A DNA stretch of 49,711 bases, taken from positions 1 to 49,711 of the forward strand of contig CALAHF010000183.1 in NCBI GenBank assembly GCA_937891465.1, read 5' to 3'. Within the stretch, counting starts at the first letter, position 1. Every line of letters starts with the position of its first letter. The position numbers and the translations under genes are program-made. Below are positions 3,251-49,711 of the stretch, piece after piece. The notes under the pieces were generated by a model. The model saw nothing but the letters and a program-made list of their open reading frames with translations. It was not told the DNA's origin and made no database searches. The DNA comes from an uncultured Verrucomicrobiales bacterium (GTDB lineage Bacteria > Verrucomicrobiota > Verrucomicrobiia > Verrucomicrobiales > DEV007).

Positions 3251-3295
3251 ACGAATCAACAGGGTATGTTCAATGAATCAACCCTATTGATTCGT
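3251..3295. repeat. Dispersed palindromic repeat, copy 1 (near-perfect)
   Basis: A 45-nt imperfect palindrome. Its left arm ACGAATCAACAGGGT pairs with the right arm ACCCTATTGATTCGT with a single G-U type mismatch around a 15-nt centre. It fills most of the gap between dnaJ and the Nif3-like gene, so it would form a hairpin inside a shared transcript. This is the best-preserved copy in the window. Confidence 0.9.
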
Positions 3296-8051: not shown

Positions 8052-10853
8052 GTGAGCAAAAACAATCCAGTAATTGAAGTGATTTGGCGCAAAGCTCCGT
8101 TTTTGCCTGAGGCAAAATTGTGGCTTGATCCCCATGGGCCGTGCGATTTTGCCTTTGTTTCTCACGCGCACGCAGACCACTTTGCCCCTCATGGAAAAAT
8201 TCTCTGCAGCGAGCCCACCGCTCGAATTATCGAGAAACGATTCGGGAATCGGAAAAGCGACTATCTAATTTTGCCATTCGGAGAGGTGCATCAGCTCGAC
8301 GACCGGCACGAGATTCAACTCCTCCCTGCTGGACATACTGCTGGTTCCGCTCAAATTTTTGTCCGAAATACCGAAACTGGTGCCAGCCTTCTTTACACCG
8401 GCGATTTCAAAATGAGGCCATCAGCTGCGGCCGAACCCATCGAGTTCCGCCATGCTGACACGCTGATTATGGAGACCACCTTTGGGATTCCTAAATTCAC
8501 CCTTCCACCCACTGCTGATGTCATTGCGCAAATGGTGAAGTTCGCCCGTGAGACGCTTGAGGACGGTGACATTCCATTTCTGATGGGGTATTCGCTCGGA
8601 AAAGCGCAGGAAATTATTCTGGCGGTTCATGCCGCTGCGCCGGAATTAAAATTTCAGGTTCACAAAACGGTCGAAAAAATGAACGCCGTTGTCGGATCTC
8701 TCGGTTGGAAATTCCCCGAATGTCAGCCGTTCGAGCCCAAAAAACGTGATCCAGTCGGCCATGTCATTGTCATTCCTCCAAACAGCCTGAAGTCTCAGGA
8801 AATTCGCCGAATCAAAAACAAACGGGCCGCTATGATGACGGGGTGGGGGATTGATTCAAACGCGCGCTATCGCTACCAGTGTGACGAAGTATTCCCGTTG
8901 ACCGACCACGCGGATTATCCAGACCTCCATACCTATGTCGAGGACGTAAATCCACACCTTGTCTACACACTTCATGGCTATGCAAGCCAGTTTGCCACAG
9001 AGCTACGCGCCAAGGGGCGAGAAGCGTGGTCCCTCATTTCTGCAAATCAAACCGAGCTGAAATTTGATGGCGATGTTCGAACCACGATTCCAAAGGTCGA
9101 AAATACCAGCCACGAAGTTCCACGGCCTGAATCCGGTTTCGGGCGCTTCGTTGAAACGTGCGAAGCCGTCCGTGACGCCACGGGTAAGTTGAAAAAACAG
9201 GCTGTCCTTGCTGAATACCTCCGCTCACTCACGACGTCGGAAGAACTTCAGACGGCATGCTTGTTCTTGACCGGGAGCCCACTTTCAAAAACCGCTGCGA
9301 CGCGCACCGTCAACACAGGCTGGGCGATTGTTCGTCGCGTCATTCGCGAAATTTCGGGGCTTTCTGAAACTCAATATCGTCAGATTTCCACCAGTCAGGC
9401 TGATTCAGCTCGCACTTCATATATCATTCTTCAGGGGCACACCAATCCGGAACCTCATAAGCTTTCGGATATTGCTCGGCTTTTTGAAAACCTCGCCGCC
9501 GCCAGGGGATCGGCAAAAATTTCAGTTCTTAAAGAAACGCTTTCCAAGCTGCACCATGCCGAAGCGGCCATGGTCGTCGGAATTCTCGGGGGCGATCTTC
9601 GAATCGGACTGAAGGAAGGTCTCCTTGAAGAATCTATTGCGGCCGCTTTTGATCGAGAAGTAAGCCTTGTTCGCGAAGCTCATATGCTCACAGGAGATCC
9701 CGGGAAAACAGCGCTGCTCGCACGCGATAATTTGCTTTCAGAATCCGGAGTTACTCCCTTTCATCCGTTAAAAATTATGCTCGCCAGCCCCGAGCCGGAT
9801 GCTGAGGGTATTTGGAAGAGGCTCTCCGAAACCGAAGGTGGCGTTTGGCTCGAGGACAAATACGACGGCATTCGAGCGCAACTTCACAAAGTTGGTGATC
9901 GTGTCGAAATTTATTCCCGCGACCAAAGGGCGCTGGGGAAAGAGTTTGCGGAACTCATCCCCGAAGCTCAGAAGATTACAGACGACTTCATTTTCGATGG
10001 CGAAATCATTGCCTACGCCGCCGGCAAAAAACTGACGTTCTTCGATCTGCAAAAACGTCTCGGCCGACTTAATGAAGGCGATTTGTTTTTCGGAGAATCC
10101 ATCCCTGTGACTTTTCTTGCCTTCGACGTTCTCTGGCACAACGGCGAAAGCCTGATCAAAAAGCCGCTGATCGACCGTGTTTCCCATTTCGATCAGATAG
10201 GGTTCGATCGACAAACAGACCCTGTTGGATCGAATGAAGGAGATCGCGTAGCTTCGGCCGATAGCCCAGCAAGCCGATCGCCGCACGATCAGATAGAGTA
10301 CGTTTATCGAATCAACCCTGTTGCTTCGTATCGTGCCCAATCGACTGCAGAAATTGATGACCATTTTTACGCGGCTAGAAAACGTGACAATGAAGGGCTC
10401 ATCGCAAAAGACCCCAATTCCGCATACTCGCCTGGGCGCCGGGGGAAATCCTGGCTCAAGCTTAAAAAGGCTGCGGCTACGTTGGACTGTGTTGTTGTGA
10501 AAGCGCAACTGGGGCACGGCAAACGAACTCATGTGTTGAGTGATTACACGTTCGCAATCCGAGATGAGCAAACCGATCAGCTTCGAGTCTTGGGAAAAGC
10601 GTATTCAGGCCTGACCGATCTGGAAATCGAAGAACTTACCGAACATTTCAAAGCAAACACGCTCGAGGTGAACCGCCGGGTTCACACGGTTGAACCGAAT
10701 GTTGTCCTGGAAATTGCATTCGATTCGATTCAGCCAAGCAAGCGTCACGATTCCGGATTGTCACTCCGGTTTCCCCGAATCAAGGCGATTCGTCGTGACA
10801 AAACCATTGCCGATATCGATACGATGAAGTCGGCATTGAAGCTGATTCGGTGA
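8052..10853 (+). CDS. Fused ligase-associated MBL-fold exonuclease / ATP-dependent DNA ligase
   Basis: 933 residues from a GTG start. Residues 1-340 are a metallo-beta-lactamase/beta-CASP nuclease: SHAHADHF is the metal motif, followed by LLPAGHTAGSAQ, YTGDFKM and LTDHADY, as in the ligase-associated exonuclease of bacterial repair clusters. Residues 360-933 are an ATP-dependent DNA ligase: helical DNA-binding domain, motif I EDKYDGIR (lysine is the AMP acceptor), DGEIIAY (III), FDVLWHNG (IIIa), NEGLIAKD (IV), SWLKLKK (V), then an OB-fold. In many bacteria these activities are separate genes beside an Lhr helicase and a phosphoesterase, neither seen here. Between IIIa and IV (about residues 713-760) the frame contains two palindromic repeat copies. 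The frame stays open. Confidence 0.93.
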   Translation: MSKNNPVIEVIWRKAPFLPEAKLWLDPHGPCDFAFVSHAHADHFAPHGKILCSEPTARIIEKRFGNRKSDYLILPFGEVHQLDDRHEIQLLPAGHTAGSAQIFVRNTETGASLLYTGDFKMRPSAAAEPIEFRHADTLIMETTFGIPKFTLPPTADVIAQMVKFARETLEDGDIPFLMGYSLGKAQEIILAVHAAAPELKFQVHKTVEKMNAVVGSLGWKFPECQPFEPKKRDPVGHVIVIPPNSLKSQEIRRIKNKRAAMMTGWGIDSNARYRYQCDEVFPLTDHADYPDLHTYVEDVNPHLVYTLHGYASQFATELRAKGREAWSLISANQTELKFDGDVRTTIPKVENTSHEVPRPESGFGRFVETCEAVRDATGKLKKQAVLAEYLRSLTTSEELQTACLFLTGSPLSKTAATRTVNTGWAIVRRVIREISGLSETQYRQISTSQADSARTSYIILQGHTNPEPHKLSDIARLFENLAAARGSAKISVLKETLSKLHHAEAAMVVGILGGDLRIGLKEGLLEESIAAAFDREVSLVREAHMLTGDPGKTALLARDNLLSESGVTPFHPLKIMLASPEPDAEGIWKRLSETEGGVWLEDKYDGIRAQLHKVGDRVEIYSRDQRALGKEFAELIPEAQKITDDFIFDGEIIAYAAGKKLTFFDLQKRLGRLNEGDLFFGESIPVTFLAFDVLWHNGESLIKKPLIDRVSHFDQIGFDRQTDPVGSNEGDRVASADSPASRSPHDQIEYVYRINPVASYRAQSTAEIDDHFYAARKRDNEGLIAKDPNSAYSPGRRGKSWLKLKKAAATLDCVVVKAQLGHGKRTHVLSDYTFAIRDEQTDQLRVLGKAYSGLTDLEIEELTEHFKANTLEVNRRVHTVEPNVVLEIAFDSIQPSKRHDSGLSLRFPRIKAIRRDKTIADIDTMKSALKLIR
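10190..10233. repeat. Dispersed palindromic repeat, copy 2a, inside the ligase ORF
   Basis: The arms CGATCAGATAGGGT and ACCCTGTTGGATCG match the intergenic family. The copy lies in frame inside the exonuclease-ligase gene and is read as DQIGFDRQTDPVGSNE, after motif IIIa. A second copy starts exactly 96 nt (32 codons) downstream. Confidence 0.85.
10286..10329. repeat. Dispersed palindromic repeat, copy 2b, inside the ligase ORF
   Basis: It begins CGATCAGATAGAGT and ends AACCCTGTTGCTTCG, and is read in the same frame as copy 2a (DQIEYVYRINPVASYR against DQIGFDRQTDPVGSNE). It is more diverged than the intergenic copies, with a weaker stem, as expected if coding constraint or age has altered it. 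Confidence 0.8.
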
Positions 10854-15896: not shown

Positions 15897-15940
15897 CGAT
15901 CTAATAGGGTCTGTTCGACGAATGAACCCTATCCATTCGT
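15897..15940. repeat. Dispersed palindromic repeat, copy 3
   Basis: The arms CGATCTAATAGGGT and ACCCTATCCATTCG flank the centre CTGTTCGACGAATGA. The copy occupies nearly the whole gap between the propeller-protein stop (15945) and the kbl start (15887), so a co-transcript of the two genes would carry the hairpin just before kbl. Confidence 0.88.
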
Positions 15941-21195: not shown

Positions 21196-21238
21196 CGAAC
21201 CAACAGTGTATGTTCGATGAATCAACCCTGTTGGTTCG
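21196..21238. repeat. Dispersed palindromic repeat, copy 4
   Basis: The arms CGAACCAACAGTGT and ACCCTGTTGGTTCG flank the centre ATGTTCGATGAATCA. The copy lies in the divergent intergenic region between the DUF1553 gene and trkA. Confidence 0.88.
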
Positions 21239-32915: not shown

Positions 32916-32976
32916 CATAGCCTTACCTGACAAAACCCCTCTCTGCCTTCGACAGTTCAATCTTTCGTTACTCAGG

Positions 32977-33010
32977 AGGGTTGGTTCGACGAACAGACAC
33001 TGTTCGATCG
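32977..33010. repeat. Dispersed palindromic repeat, copy 6 (truncated)
   Basis: GGGTTGGTTCGACGAACAGA followed by CACTGTTCGATCG matches one arm plus the centre of the family in reverse orientation. The other arm is missing or replaced. It lies between the convergent genes maf and rpsT. Confidence 0.6.
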
Positions 33011-36411: not shown

Positions 36412-36455
36412 CGATCCAATAGGGTCTCTTCATCGAACGCACCCTGTTCGTTCGT
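36412..36455. repeat. Dispersed palindromic repeat, copy 7
   Basis: The arms CGATCCAATAGGGT and ACCCTGTTCGTTCG flank the centre CTCTTCATCGAACGC. It lies 8 bases after the FAD oxidoreductase stop and just before a strong AGGAGG site and a 20-codon ORF. Confidence 0.85.
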
Positions 36456-39060: not shown

Positions 39061-39103
39061 CGAACCAACAGGGTTGGTTCATCGAACCGACCTTATCAAA
39101 TCG
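39061..39103. repeat. Dispersed palindromic repeat, copy 8
   Basis: The left arm CGAACCAACAGGGT, centre TGGTTCATCGAACCG and right arm ACCTTATCAAATCG (diverged) place it in the family. It lies in the divergent gap between the sulfatase and nadB. Confidence 0.75.
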
Positions 39104-42035: not shown

Positions 42036-42076
42036 GCGAATTAGTGGAGTTCAGACAAGCACGCTTGCCGGTCTTT
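42036..42076. repeat. 41-nt dispersed repeat, copy 2
   Basis: Ungapped partner of 39143-39183 (30 of 41 identical by eye). Here the middle can form CAAGC-AC-GCTTG. It lies immediately before the truncated palindrome copy 9 and upstream of pyrF. Confidence 0.5.
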
Positions 42077-42082
42077 TATACG

Positions 42083-42114
42083 GTTGACTCATGGAATAGA
42101 CCCTGTTGATTCGT
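42083..42114. repeat. Dispersed palindromic repeat, copy 9 (truncated or rearranged)
   Basis: TTGACTCATGGAATAG then ACCCTGTTGATTCGT: the right arm is intact but the left arm is replaced by what looks like another right-arm end (compare TTGAGTCATGG at 49609). It lies 24 bases before the pyrF start. Confidence 0.6.
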
Positions 42115-46852: not shown

Positions 46853-49558
46853 ATGTCCACCGAGAGACGCAAACAATTTCCCTTCGACGAATTCGAGCCC
46901 AAATGGCAAGGCGTCTGGGAGTCCGAAAAAACCTTTTCCGTGCCGAACCCCGGCGACGCAGATTTCGATGCTTCCAAGCCGAAGTTCTACGCGCTTGATA
47001 TGTTCCCGTATCCAAGCGGATCAGGGCTTCATGTTGGCCACCCCGAAGGCTACACCGCGACGGATATCATTACGCGCCAGAAGCGCATGGCTGGTTTCAA
47101 TGTGCTTCACCCGATGGGTTGGGATGCCTTTGGTCTTCCCGCCGAGCGATATGCCGAAAAAACGGGGCAGCACCCGCGGATCAGCACAGAAAAAAATACG
47201 GACAACTTTCGTCGCCAGTTGAAAAGCCTCGGTTTCGCCTACGATTGGGATCGTGAAATCAACACAACCGATCCAGCTTACGTAAAATGGACCCAGTGGA
47301 TTTTTCTCCAGCTCTACAATTCGTATTTCTGCGAAGAAGAAAACAAAGCCAAGCCCGTTTCCGAATTGGAAGCCAAAGGAATGTCGCGAGATGAAATTGA
47401 CGAGCTGCGTCTCGCCTATGTTGCTGAGACTCCTGTGAACTGGTCGCCGGATTTGGGCACCGTTTTGGCAAATGAAGAAGTCGAAGAATGGCGCTCGAAG
47501 GGCCACACTGTTGAGAAGCGTCCGTTGCGTCAGTGGATGTTGCGGATCACCTCGTATGCTCAACGTTTGATCGATGAACTCGAAGGTCTTGACTGGCCGC
47601 ACGGCATCAAAATGCTGCAGACCAACTGGATTGGCCGCAGTGAAGGTGCTGAAGTGGATTTCACGATCGATGGAGAAAAGGTCACCGTTTTCACAACACG
47701 CCCCGATACCCTTTTCGGAGCGACCTACATGGTTCTCGCGCCCGAGCATCCGCTTGTTGAAAAAATCACCACGGATGATCGGAAATCAGCTGTCGAAGAT
47801 TATCAGAAAATGTGCAGCGGGAAATCCGACCTTGAGCGCACAGAGTTGGCGAAAGATAAGACCGGAATTTTTACCGGTGGCTACGCGATTAATCCCGTGA
47901 ACGATGAGAAAATACCCGTTTGGATCGCCGATTACGTTATGATGGGCTATGGCACTGGAGCGATCATGGCAGTGCCGGCGCATGATGAGCGGGACTACGA
48001 GTTTGCTGAGAAGTTTGAGCTTCCGATTATTGAAGTCGTGAAGGCGCCGGAGGGCGGGGAACAGAAGAATTTCTGCGGGAACGGAACCGCGATCAATTCC
48101 GGCTTCCTCGACGCTCTCTCCACCGCCGAAGCCAAAGAAAAAATCAGCGAGTGGCTTGAAGAAAAAGGACTCGGCAAAAAGACGATTAATTTCAAACTTC
48201 GCGACTGGTTGTTCTCACGCCAGCGTTACTGGGGTGAGCCGTTTCCAATTGTTTGGAAGGACGGAAAACACGAAGCGATTTCGGAAGCTGATTTGCCGCT
48301 GCTTGCGCCTGCGTTGGAAGATTACAAACCAACCGGAACTCCCGAGCCGCTACTTTCAAAAGCGACTGATTGGGTGAATGAACTTGGTGATGGAATCATT
48401 CGCGAAACCAACACCATGCCTCAGTGGGGGGGATCGTGCTGGTATTACCTTCGTTATTGCGATGCGCAAAACGACAGTGCGCCAATCAGCAAAGAGGCTG
48501 ATGATTATTGGCTTGGTAAAAATGGGAATCCCGGTGGAGTTGATCTCTACATCGGCGGAACCGAGCATGCTGTGTTGCATCTGTTGTATGCCCGTTTCTG
48601 GCACAAAGTCTTGTTCGACCTCGGACATGTCACCACACCCGAGCCTTTTCAGAAATTGGTGAATCAGGGGCTGATCATGGGTGAAATGGAATTCACGCTT
48701 TTTCGCGATGATTCAGGTGATCCAATTAGTTATAAATCAAGTTTCGTCGCAGGGAACATGAAGACCGATTCTCTGACGGCGGATGACGTTGAGAAAAAGG
48801 GTGACAGCTTCGTTTGGAAAACAGACACGAAAATTCGAGTCGAAGCCAAGTCTCACAAAATGTCCAAGTCACGCGGCAACGTCGTGAACCCCGATGACGT
48901 GGTTGAACTCTACGGCGCCGATTCGCTCCGCCTTTACGAAATGTTCATGGGACCGCTTGAGCAGGTGAAGCCCTGGTCAATGAACGGTGTCGAAGGTGTG
49001 TATCGCTTTCTCGGTCGCGTCTGGCGGTTGGTCATGGAACAAAATCAGGAAGGTGATTGGGCAAAGCGCGATCATTTGACTGATGGCGAGCCTGACAAAG
49101 CCACGCTGAAAGTCGTTCACGCTACGATCAGGAAAGTCACCGAAGACATTGAGAGCATGAGCTTCAATACCGCTATTTCCCAAATGATGGTGTGCACCAA
49201 CGAGCTCAACAAACTGGAGTCATTGCCGATCAGTGCGGTGAAGACATTGCTTCACGTGCTGAATCCGTTTGCGCCGCATTTGTCCGAAGAATTGAATGGG
49301 ATTCTCGGAGGTGATGCACTCGCCAATCAGGCATGGCCTGAGTTTGAAGAAGCGTATCTCGTCGAAGATGAAATCGAACTCGTCATTCAGGTGAACGGAA
49401 AAGTCCGCGACAAGCTGATGGTTTCCAAAGATGCGCCGAAAGATGAAATCGAAAAACTGGCTCTCGCGAGTGAGAAAGTTCAGAACTTCACCGACGGTAA
49501 CACTGTTCGGAAAGTCATCGTTGTTCCAGGTCGCCTCGTAAACATCGTGGCGAACTGA
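46853..49558 (+). CDS. leuS: Leucyl-tRNA synthetase
   Basis: 901 residues, slightly longer than the usual 800-870. HIGH region: [22 protein letters not shown]; editing domain with [22 protein letters not shown]; zinc-like insert region; catalytic KMSKS as [16 protein letters not shown]; a leucyl-specific stretch with [10 protein letters not shown]; and the C-terminal [10 protein letters not shown] block of the tRNA-binding domain. It charges tRNA-Leu and edits norvaline-like errors. Two tandem palindromic repeats follow the stop. No operon partner other than the VTT gene upstream. Confidence 0.97.
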
Positions 49559-49572
49559 GCGGCCCGATTTTT

Positions 49573-49616
49573 ACGAATCAACAGGGTCTATTCATCGAAC
49601 GTACCCTATTGAGTCA
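49573..49616. repeat. Dispersed palindromic repeat, copy 10
   Basis: The arms ACGAATCAACAGGGT and ACCCTATTGAGTCATG flank CTATTCATCGAACGT. It lies 14 bases after the leuS stop and is followed within 12 bases by another copy, so the pair could form a double hairpin. Confidence 0.85.
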
Positions 49617-49625
49617 TGGAGGCAT

Positions 49626-49667
49626 TTCGATCGAACAGGGTTGATTCGATGAACCAACCCTATTGAG
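49626..49667. repeat. Dispersed palindromic repeat, copy 11
   Basis: TTCGATCGAACAGGGT and ACCCTATTGAGG arms with TGATTCGATGAACCA between. Its left flank is adjacent to copy 10. This is the only tight tandem pair outside the ligase gene. Confidence 0.8.
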
Positions 49668-49711
49668 GCTGTTGGAAAAATATTTTATCGACGCGGTATT
49701 CCGACTTGAAC

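Follow-up and report, generated by a model that had tools for sequence, protein, structure and literature searches.

Why does a DNA ligase gene carry, within its reading frame, two copies of a palindromic repeat that otherwise lies mostly between genes, and is such a repeat a parasite tolerated by the protein or a signal kept by the chromosome? The question is raised by a contig of an uncultured Verrucomicrobiales bacterium, known from a metagenome-assembled genome (MAG; GCA_937891465.1, CALAHF010000183.1, positions 1-49,711 of the forward strand; this whole stretch of 49,711 nucleotides is called the window), in which a fused exonuclease-ligase gene holds both copies. We find that the repeat is abundant in a single clade, that its sites are spaced more evenly than expected at random, and that copies inside genes are conserved at silent positions between two species. 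We therefore read it as a clade-specific, maintained and evenly spaced DNA site, either uptake-sequence-like or architectural, that also enlarges by copying, and we put the probability of this reading at about 0.55.

The genome to which the window belongs (G000; 5.97 Mb in 229 contigs, with Verrucomicrobiales MAGs as the closest named records) was compared with a congener (G001) and with a member of another genus, g12 (G012), all of them draft MAGs. Weight-matrix, spacing and in-gene results for G000 come from about 1.65 of its 5.97 Mb, and the choice of contigs was partly guided by known copies, which affects density and leaves the spacing within contigs unaffected.

Two repeat copies within a DNA ligase gene

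The gene (positions 8052-10853, plus strand) starts with GTG and forms one open frame of 933 codons. Its 933-residue product joins a ligase-associated exonuclease of the metallo-beta-lactamase/beta-CASP type to an ATP-dependent DNA ligase: Pfam finds all three ligase domains (DNA_ligase_A_N, DNA_ligase_A_M and DNA_ligase_A_C) together with Lactamase_B_2, TIGR04122 and TIGR04120/PRK09247 match with scores under their cut-offs, and the G001 orthologue is 68-72% identical. The same fusion in a single protein occurs in Verrucomicrobia relatives. Repeat copy 1 (10190-10232, plus strand; 43 nt, composed of 21+1+21) and copy 2 (10286-10328, plus strand; 43 nt) are both read in phase 2, as FDQIGFDRQTDPVGS and HDQIEYVYRINPVAS, respectively, and flank a linker of 53 nt (10233-10285, plus strand). 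A first-pass annotation, made from the letters of the window, had placed two copies of an intergenic repeat here; the exact positions and the open frame bear it out in that the copies start exactly 96 nt apart, share one frame and lie between ligase motifs IIIa and IV, while alignment with orthologues shows every catalytic motif intact.

Against the weight matrix of the repeat, the two copies score 52 and 47 bits, compared with a peak of about 3 bits in shuffled sequence. When the codons of the ligase are shuffled synonymously, the scores fall to means of 14 and 5 bits, so the ligase protein alone does not explain the DNA; together, the two kinds of shuffle exclude a chance origin. An assembly artefact caused by duplicated reads was likewise ruled out, as the two copies are merely 72% identical.

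Motifs IIIa (DLLW) and IV (GLIAK) delimit a stretch of 95 residues here, compared with 63 in G001 and 62-65 in palindrome-free orthologues. The expectation that orthologues would be shorter at this place was thus right, although the excess is 32 residues rather than the 40-45 first proposed. It corresponds to 96 nt, or 32 codons, within positions 10206-10311 (plus strand) that are extra relative to G001 and all other aligned orthologues, the exact ends being ambiguous because of the repeated copies. The same residues in repeat-free orthologues would have marked the segment as inherited; for the 32-residue addition, the alignment has them in no orthologue, neither in G001 nor outside the genus.

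The G001 ligase does, however, carry a single palindrome at the same place, read as CGAATCGATAGGGTTCGTTCGCCAAATCAAACCTGTTCATTCG, within a loop of normal length. Of the idea that both copies are an insertion, what stands is therefore the addition of one palindrome and the linker. Judging from the two genes, the site was probably already occupied by one palindrome in the common ancestor with G001, and the difference would then be either a 96-nt gain in the G000 lineage or a 96-nt loss in G001, both amounting to 32 whole codons and both in frame. The single copy of G001 resembles the left half of copy 1 and the right half of copy 2, a weakly supported likeness (p = 0.09) that is suggestive only, as would be expected for an addition within a resident palindrome. 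In G012, the ligase loop has no palindrome, and one palindrome overlaps the 3' end of the ligase gene (G012:C74; L031:4170-4212).

A structural model, which the first-pass annotation had called for, places the addition (model residues 361-391; residues 720-750 of the full protein) at a predicted local distance difference test score (pLDDT) of 33-38 without secondary structure, between well-predicted flanks. The remainder of the ligase is well predicted by AlphaFold2 (mean 86) and resembles archaeal and human DNA ligases, so that the 32 added residues are probably a disordered loop. At the nucleotide level, copy 2 alone is a poor palindrome, with an RNA fold of -6.9 kcal/mol and a z of -0.8, but the 139-nt composite of palindrome, linker and palindrome forms a single long hairpin (-52 kcal/mol, z -4.2).

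Anatomy and distribution of the repeat

The repeat unit of 43 nt consists of two 21-nt half-sites with 1 nt between them. Each half-site follows the consensus CGAW-N3-A(C/T)AGGGT-N3-WTCG, with symmetric arms around an asymmetric core that may point in either direction, and the unit as a whole has the consensus ends TTTTA-CGAW...WTCG-TRAA. Both cores could be given a direction in 190 copies, of which 124 are of the inverted kind, 65 of the direct and 1 of the everted; given these mixed orientations, a pair of half-sites is a fitter name than a strict palindrome. Units also occur in pairs, most commonly in G000 at a spacing of 54 nt (45 such pairs in the 1.65 Mb). The centres of half-sites lie 22 and 32 bp apart, which would place them on one face of the helix and would suit an oligomeric DNA-binding protein.

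That the ligase copies belong to a repeat also found between genes, as the first reading had it, is confirmed by searches of the window and of the genome. A degenerate 43-mer that tolerates up to three mismatches finds 16 strand-hits across the window, versus none in 100 shuffles, and a pattern search of the whole of G000 gives 244 matches, compared with 0 for the reversed control. In 0.85 Mb of G000 the weight matrix detects 161 copies, and another 0.80 Mb yields 131, from which we estimate roughly 1,000 copies per genome. The distribution is limited to a clade: G000, G001 and G012 are rich in the repeat, a few relatives have traces, and the remaining order has essentially none. The g12 copies have a different centre and were for this reason overlooked by the exact symmetric pattern search.

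In-gene copies in other genes

Is the ligase an isolated case? Counting copies that lie at least 150 nt inside an open reading frame (ORF), the sampled part of G000 has 20 in 17 genes. All are in frame, in phase 1 in 13 genes, in phase 2 in four and in phase 0 in none. From their sequences and established knowledge, we take the other products to include DnaE, cysteinyl-tRNA synthetase (CysRS), PanC, GlpD, MenD and an HscA-like Hsp70, and further a MobA-FdhD fusion, PhnE, PSD1- and DUF1501-type proteins, a squalene/phytoene synthase, HEAT proteins and an M56 peptidase.

One inserted copy would lengthen a protein by 14-15 residues, whereas most in-gene copies change its length by nearly nothing. 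Relative to palindrome-free relatives, the difference is -3 in PanC and in MobA-FdhD, -5 in the DUF1501 and the squalene synthase-like protein, 0 to +2 in the HscA-like protein, about +1 to +3 in GlpD and 0 in the G001 ligase. Judging from these alignments, most in-gene copies appear to replace native residues and not to add to them. In GlpD (G000:C80; L059:529-571) and in the PSD1-type protein (G000:C57; L267:743-785), the residues encoded by the palindrome match conserved native motifs, QPCSTGELTLL and TNPVDSFI, respectively.

The copies are also shared and conserved. Nearly all in-gene sites tested are occupied in G001 too and several in genus g12, where the palindrome recurs at the same place in MobA-FdhD, GlpD, DnaE, CysRS and a HEAT protein. 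We then considered codons that specify the same amino acid in G000 and in the one congener compared, and asked whether they are identical inside and outside the repeat. Inside repeats, 100 of 128 such codons are identical, versus 1615 of 3595 outside (Fisher p = 7e-14); the ligase contributes 9 of 10 inside, compared with 41% outside. As the genes were picked by a palindrome in G000 alone, conservation in G001 was not forced by the selection. In-gene copies show no decay either, matching the consensus at 52.1 bits versus 49.2 bits for intergenic copies (p = 0.45). In the MobA-FdhD gene, the palindrome lies at the fusion junction (G000:C86, L068:5753-5795; orthologues L193 and L198), and its DNA is 88-93% identical in three species that represent two genera; its third positions stand well above the mean of the gene.

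Spacing along the chromosome

For the spacing tests, we used our own simple gene calls, merged copies less than 400 nt apart into one site, and compared the result with random intergenic slots or uniform positions in 2000 simulations. The 238 sites in the 1.65 Mb of G000 have a coefficient of variation (CV) of 0.626, whereas random intergenic slots give 0.860; 0 of 2000 simulations were as even, and gaps shorter than 2 kb make up 2.9% instead of 20.5%. The pattern recurs in G012, whose 47 sites in 400 kb have a CV of 0.394 versus 0.898 at random (again 0 of 2000), with no gap below 2 kb versus 17%. A site, or a pair of sites, occurs in G000 roughly every 6.7 kb.

The in-gene sites are part of this order. 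Their distance to the next site (median 5.6 kb, compared with 2.05 kb for random coding positions; p = 1.6e-6) is like that of other sites, and the nearest usable intergenic slot is farther from them (1.3 kb) than from random coding positions (0.65 kb; p = 0.002). They do not occupy longer gaps than intergenic copies do, and that idea was dropped.

A maintained DNA site or a mobile palindrome

How could these properties fit together? Most sites lie between genes, near their 3' ends. As we picture it, a site would be needed, or driven, roughly every 7 kb, and if the intergenic slots are too far away, it would come to lie at a permissive segment of a gene, usually in place of native codons, and read in either of the two phases in which its peptide is hydrophilic and free of stops. 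In the ligase, an ancestral single site in the loop that separates motifs IIIa and IV would have become a palindrome-linker-palindrome composite in the G000 lineage, or 96 nt would have been lost in G001 by recombination between the repeats. The sites may be kept up at the DNA level either by selection for sequence-specific binding of a protein, for example one that organises the nucleoid or the chromosome, or by the kind of molecular drive known from DNA-uptake sequences. What is maintained, we infer, is recognition of the DNA by a protein; the function of that recognition and the route of copying are, like it, read from the pattern.

Both possibilities have known counterparts. The uptake signal sequences (USS) and DNA uptake sequences (DUS) of Pasteurellaceae and Neisseriaceae occur in hundreds to thousands of copies with a relatively even distribution, form inverted pairs between genes and extend into coding sequence with a preference of frame and orientation (PMC7811141, PMC2346458), and the relatively even distribution of USS has been explained by molecular drive (PMC7811141). 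An uptake tag under such drive would also be expected to yield even spacing, conserved silent sites and an overlay on coding sequence. Here, many copies and a spacing more even than random are seen in two genera, and copies overlie coding sequence in preferred frames without insertion, with PhnE, the HEAT protein of contig C97 and the ligase composite as exceptions. Unlike USS and DUS, the palindrome is dyad-symmetric and much longer (2 x 21 nt). Sites of chromosome-organising proteins of the nucleoid or condensin type offer another possible parallel, in dyad arrays of several half-sites with centres about 2 and 3 helical turns apart (here 22 and 32 bp) and in their even spacing.

Several observations pull the other way. 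Composites with homologous linkers are dispersed in the genome, copied around as mobile elements are. PhnE, the C97 HEAT protein, the PSD1-type protein (+6) and the ligase composite contain real additions, and where the length is unchanged, an old insertion could in principle have been balanced by later deletions. Target immunity of a transposition system could also space the sites evenly, but on its own would account neither for the conserved silent sites nor for the copies that leave length unchanged. No protein that binds the repeat and no uptake specificity was identified; these genomes do have ComEC, but so do palindrome-free relatives, and the half-sites are far longer than known uptake motifs. 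The analysis itself draws on draft MAGs, simple gene calls and an in-gene sample of just 17 genes.

The copying is best seen in the composites. A second palindrome-linker-palindrome composite, with a 53-nt linker and the same unit spacing of 96, lies in a gene for an M56/BlaR1-type peptidase (G000:C175:1672-1810; L051), and its linker is 80% identical to that of the ligase over 40 nt. Weaker relatives of the ligase linker adjoin palindromes at G000:C104, G000:C166 and G001:C341, hence in both species, and a composite type with an 86-nt linker is present at several places. Such dispersed composites with common linkers indicate that units have been copied around the genome. The peptidase composite is in frame as well, in a reading phase other than that in the ligase. 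Another composite type was seen at G000:C39:12781-12952 and 48810-48952 (L066 and L067); its linker, GGCAAGCTGGCTCGCCAGCGATCTGAGGATTC..., occurs scattered through the genome, and in both a HEAT/sorbosone-dehydrogenase-like protein and PhnE it is translated in one and the same frame, as KLARxRSED.

Because the composites were clearly copied about, the main rival explanation is a selfish mobile palindrome like the repetitive extragenic palindromes (REPs) or the Rickettsia palindromic elements (RPEs), whose insertions into genes survive if they are in frame and form an exposed loop; the ligase pair would then be a tolerated composite, as the first-pass annotation proposed. We regard this as possible but rather unlikely. 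There are points in common with RPEs, which are in-frame palindromes of about 150 bp within genes: the palindrome, too, lies in frame in unrelated and often essential genes, its composite is of like size (a hairpin of about 140 nt), and its addition to the ligase is loop-like (PMC10969869). In-frame palindromes in otherwise normal genes were found in the ligase and 16 others; sequence absent from orthologues is seen in PhnE, in the HEAT protein of contig C97 and in the 96 nt added to the ligase, while most single copies are length-neutral. By description, RPEs differ in more than their lineage: here, most single copies replace residues, silent sites are kept, the spacing is even and about 1,000 copies are present. 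A second parallel is with REPs, bacterial interspersed mosaic elements (BIMEs) and REP doublets (REPINs). In the verrucomicrobium Opitutus terrae, REPs have been reported within the uvrA and DNA ligase genes, and these families share with the palindrome a high copy number, pairs at fixed spacing, a bias to 3' ends with depletion between divergent genes, and a presence in some DNA repair and replication genes (PMC3733652). The palindrome family follows this placement, favouring 3' ends where neighbouring genes converge or run in one direction, and its high copy number in one clade and its paired and composite forms with common linkers also fit mobility.

Yet a mobile palindrome alone predicts neither the length-neutral copies nor the silent-site conservation of those shared between species nor the even spacing. 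No GTAG or CGTC tag was noted in the consensus ends and listed flanks, each half of the palindrome has symmetric arms, and the half-sites occur in either orientation. A REP-associated tyrosine transposase (RAYT; Y1 transposase) flanked by repeats was not found: G000 has a single, decayed PF01797 match and G001 one match, and no clear palindrome adjoins the Y1 loci from G012 and five other genomes, nor any of the 14 Y1 loci examined in the eight genomes together. A RAYT-driven REPIN was rejected on these grounds. Regarding miniature inverted-repeat transposable elements (MITEs), the ends of the composite are symmetric, but neither a target duplication nor a parent transposon was found, and no within-species empty sites were compared. 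Of the original proposal, the in-frame repeat family, the 32 extra residues in a predicted disordered loop and the copying of composites thus stand, whereas mobility with tolerance as its only principle does not sit well with the rest.

A role in RNA is improbable. The palindromes could be mRNA hairpins that act as terminators, protect 3' ends or mark processing sites, with the in-gene copies as regulatory hairpins. Their density is indeed highest between convergent genes (1.40/kb), intermediate between unidirectional ones (1.11 and 0.85/kb) and lowest between divergent ones (0.42/kb), the median distance from gene 3' ends is 35 nt, and single copies fold into good hairpins (about -20 kcal/mol, z below -5). 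But the 65 of 190 orientable copies with direct half-sites form no full hairpin, ligase copy 2 alone barely folds, in-gene copies would terminate or cut essential messages, and even chromosomal spacing is not predicted. It is hardly credible that the segment belongs to the ancestral ligase and resembles the repeat in a secondary way: at its left edge, a hydrophobic pattern, (F/L)-E-x-(I/L)-x-(F/L), fits the ligase family, and G001 keeps a normal loop length with one copy, but the absence of the 32 residues from all aligned orthologues outside the genus refutes it for the addition, and the loss of score on synonymous-codon shuffling speaks against it for the DNA.

Returning to the maintained DNA site, length-neutral copies, conserved silent sites, the lack of decay and even spacing are together what a tolerated parasite alone does not predict, which suggests that in the translated copies the DNA sequence itself serves the chromosome. 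In its boldest form, to which we give slightly less than even odds, this clade of Verrucomicrobiales would use an evenly spaced dyad of 2 x 21 nt, at about one per 7-8 kb, as a chromosome-wide signal, be it a tag for DNA uptake or an architectural binding site. It would write this dyad, with its silent sites kept across species, into essential proteins (ligase, CysRS, DnaE, PanC, an Hsp70) where intergenic places are lacking, and a signal of the chromosome would thereby shape protein sequence. In-frame palindromes as such are not new to the phylum, given the REPs of Opitutus terrae; the spacing and the silent-site conservation are, and a limited literature search found no description of either for such elements. 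Palindromes in frame within genes, be they RPEs or intragenic REPs, have so far been read as selfish DNA that proteins tolerate. Even spacing, replacement of residues and silent conservation in two species have the look of a chromosomal signal that is selected or driven. If true, here would be a case, open to direct test, in which a DNA signal on the scale of the chromosome shapes essential proteins, and other in-gene palindromes regarded as selfish, such as RPEs and the Opitutus REPs, would deserve the same checks of spacing and silent-site conservation.

Other sites in the window

Besides the ligase copies, the window contains palindromic sites on either side of the gene, the nearest at 3252-3294 and 15897-15939, which lie 6.9 kb left and 5.6 kb right of the ligase copies, respectively. 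Further sites follow at 21196-21238, 32968-33010 (39 bits), 36412-36454 and 39061-39103. A weak site at 42071-42113 (21 bits) overlaps the start of an ORF, and palindromes paired at the 54-nt spacing occupy positions 49574-49670.

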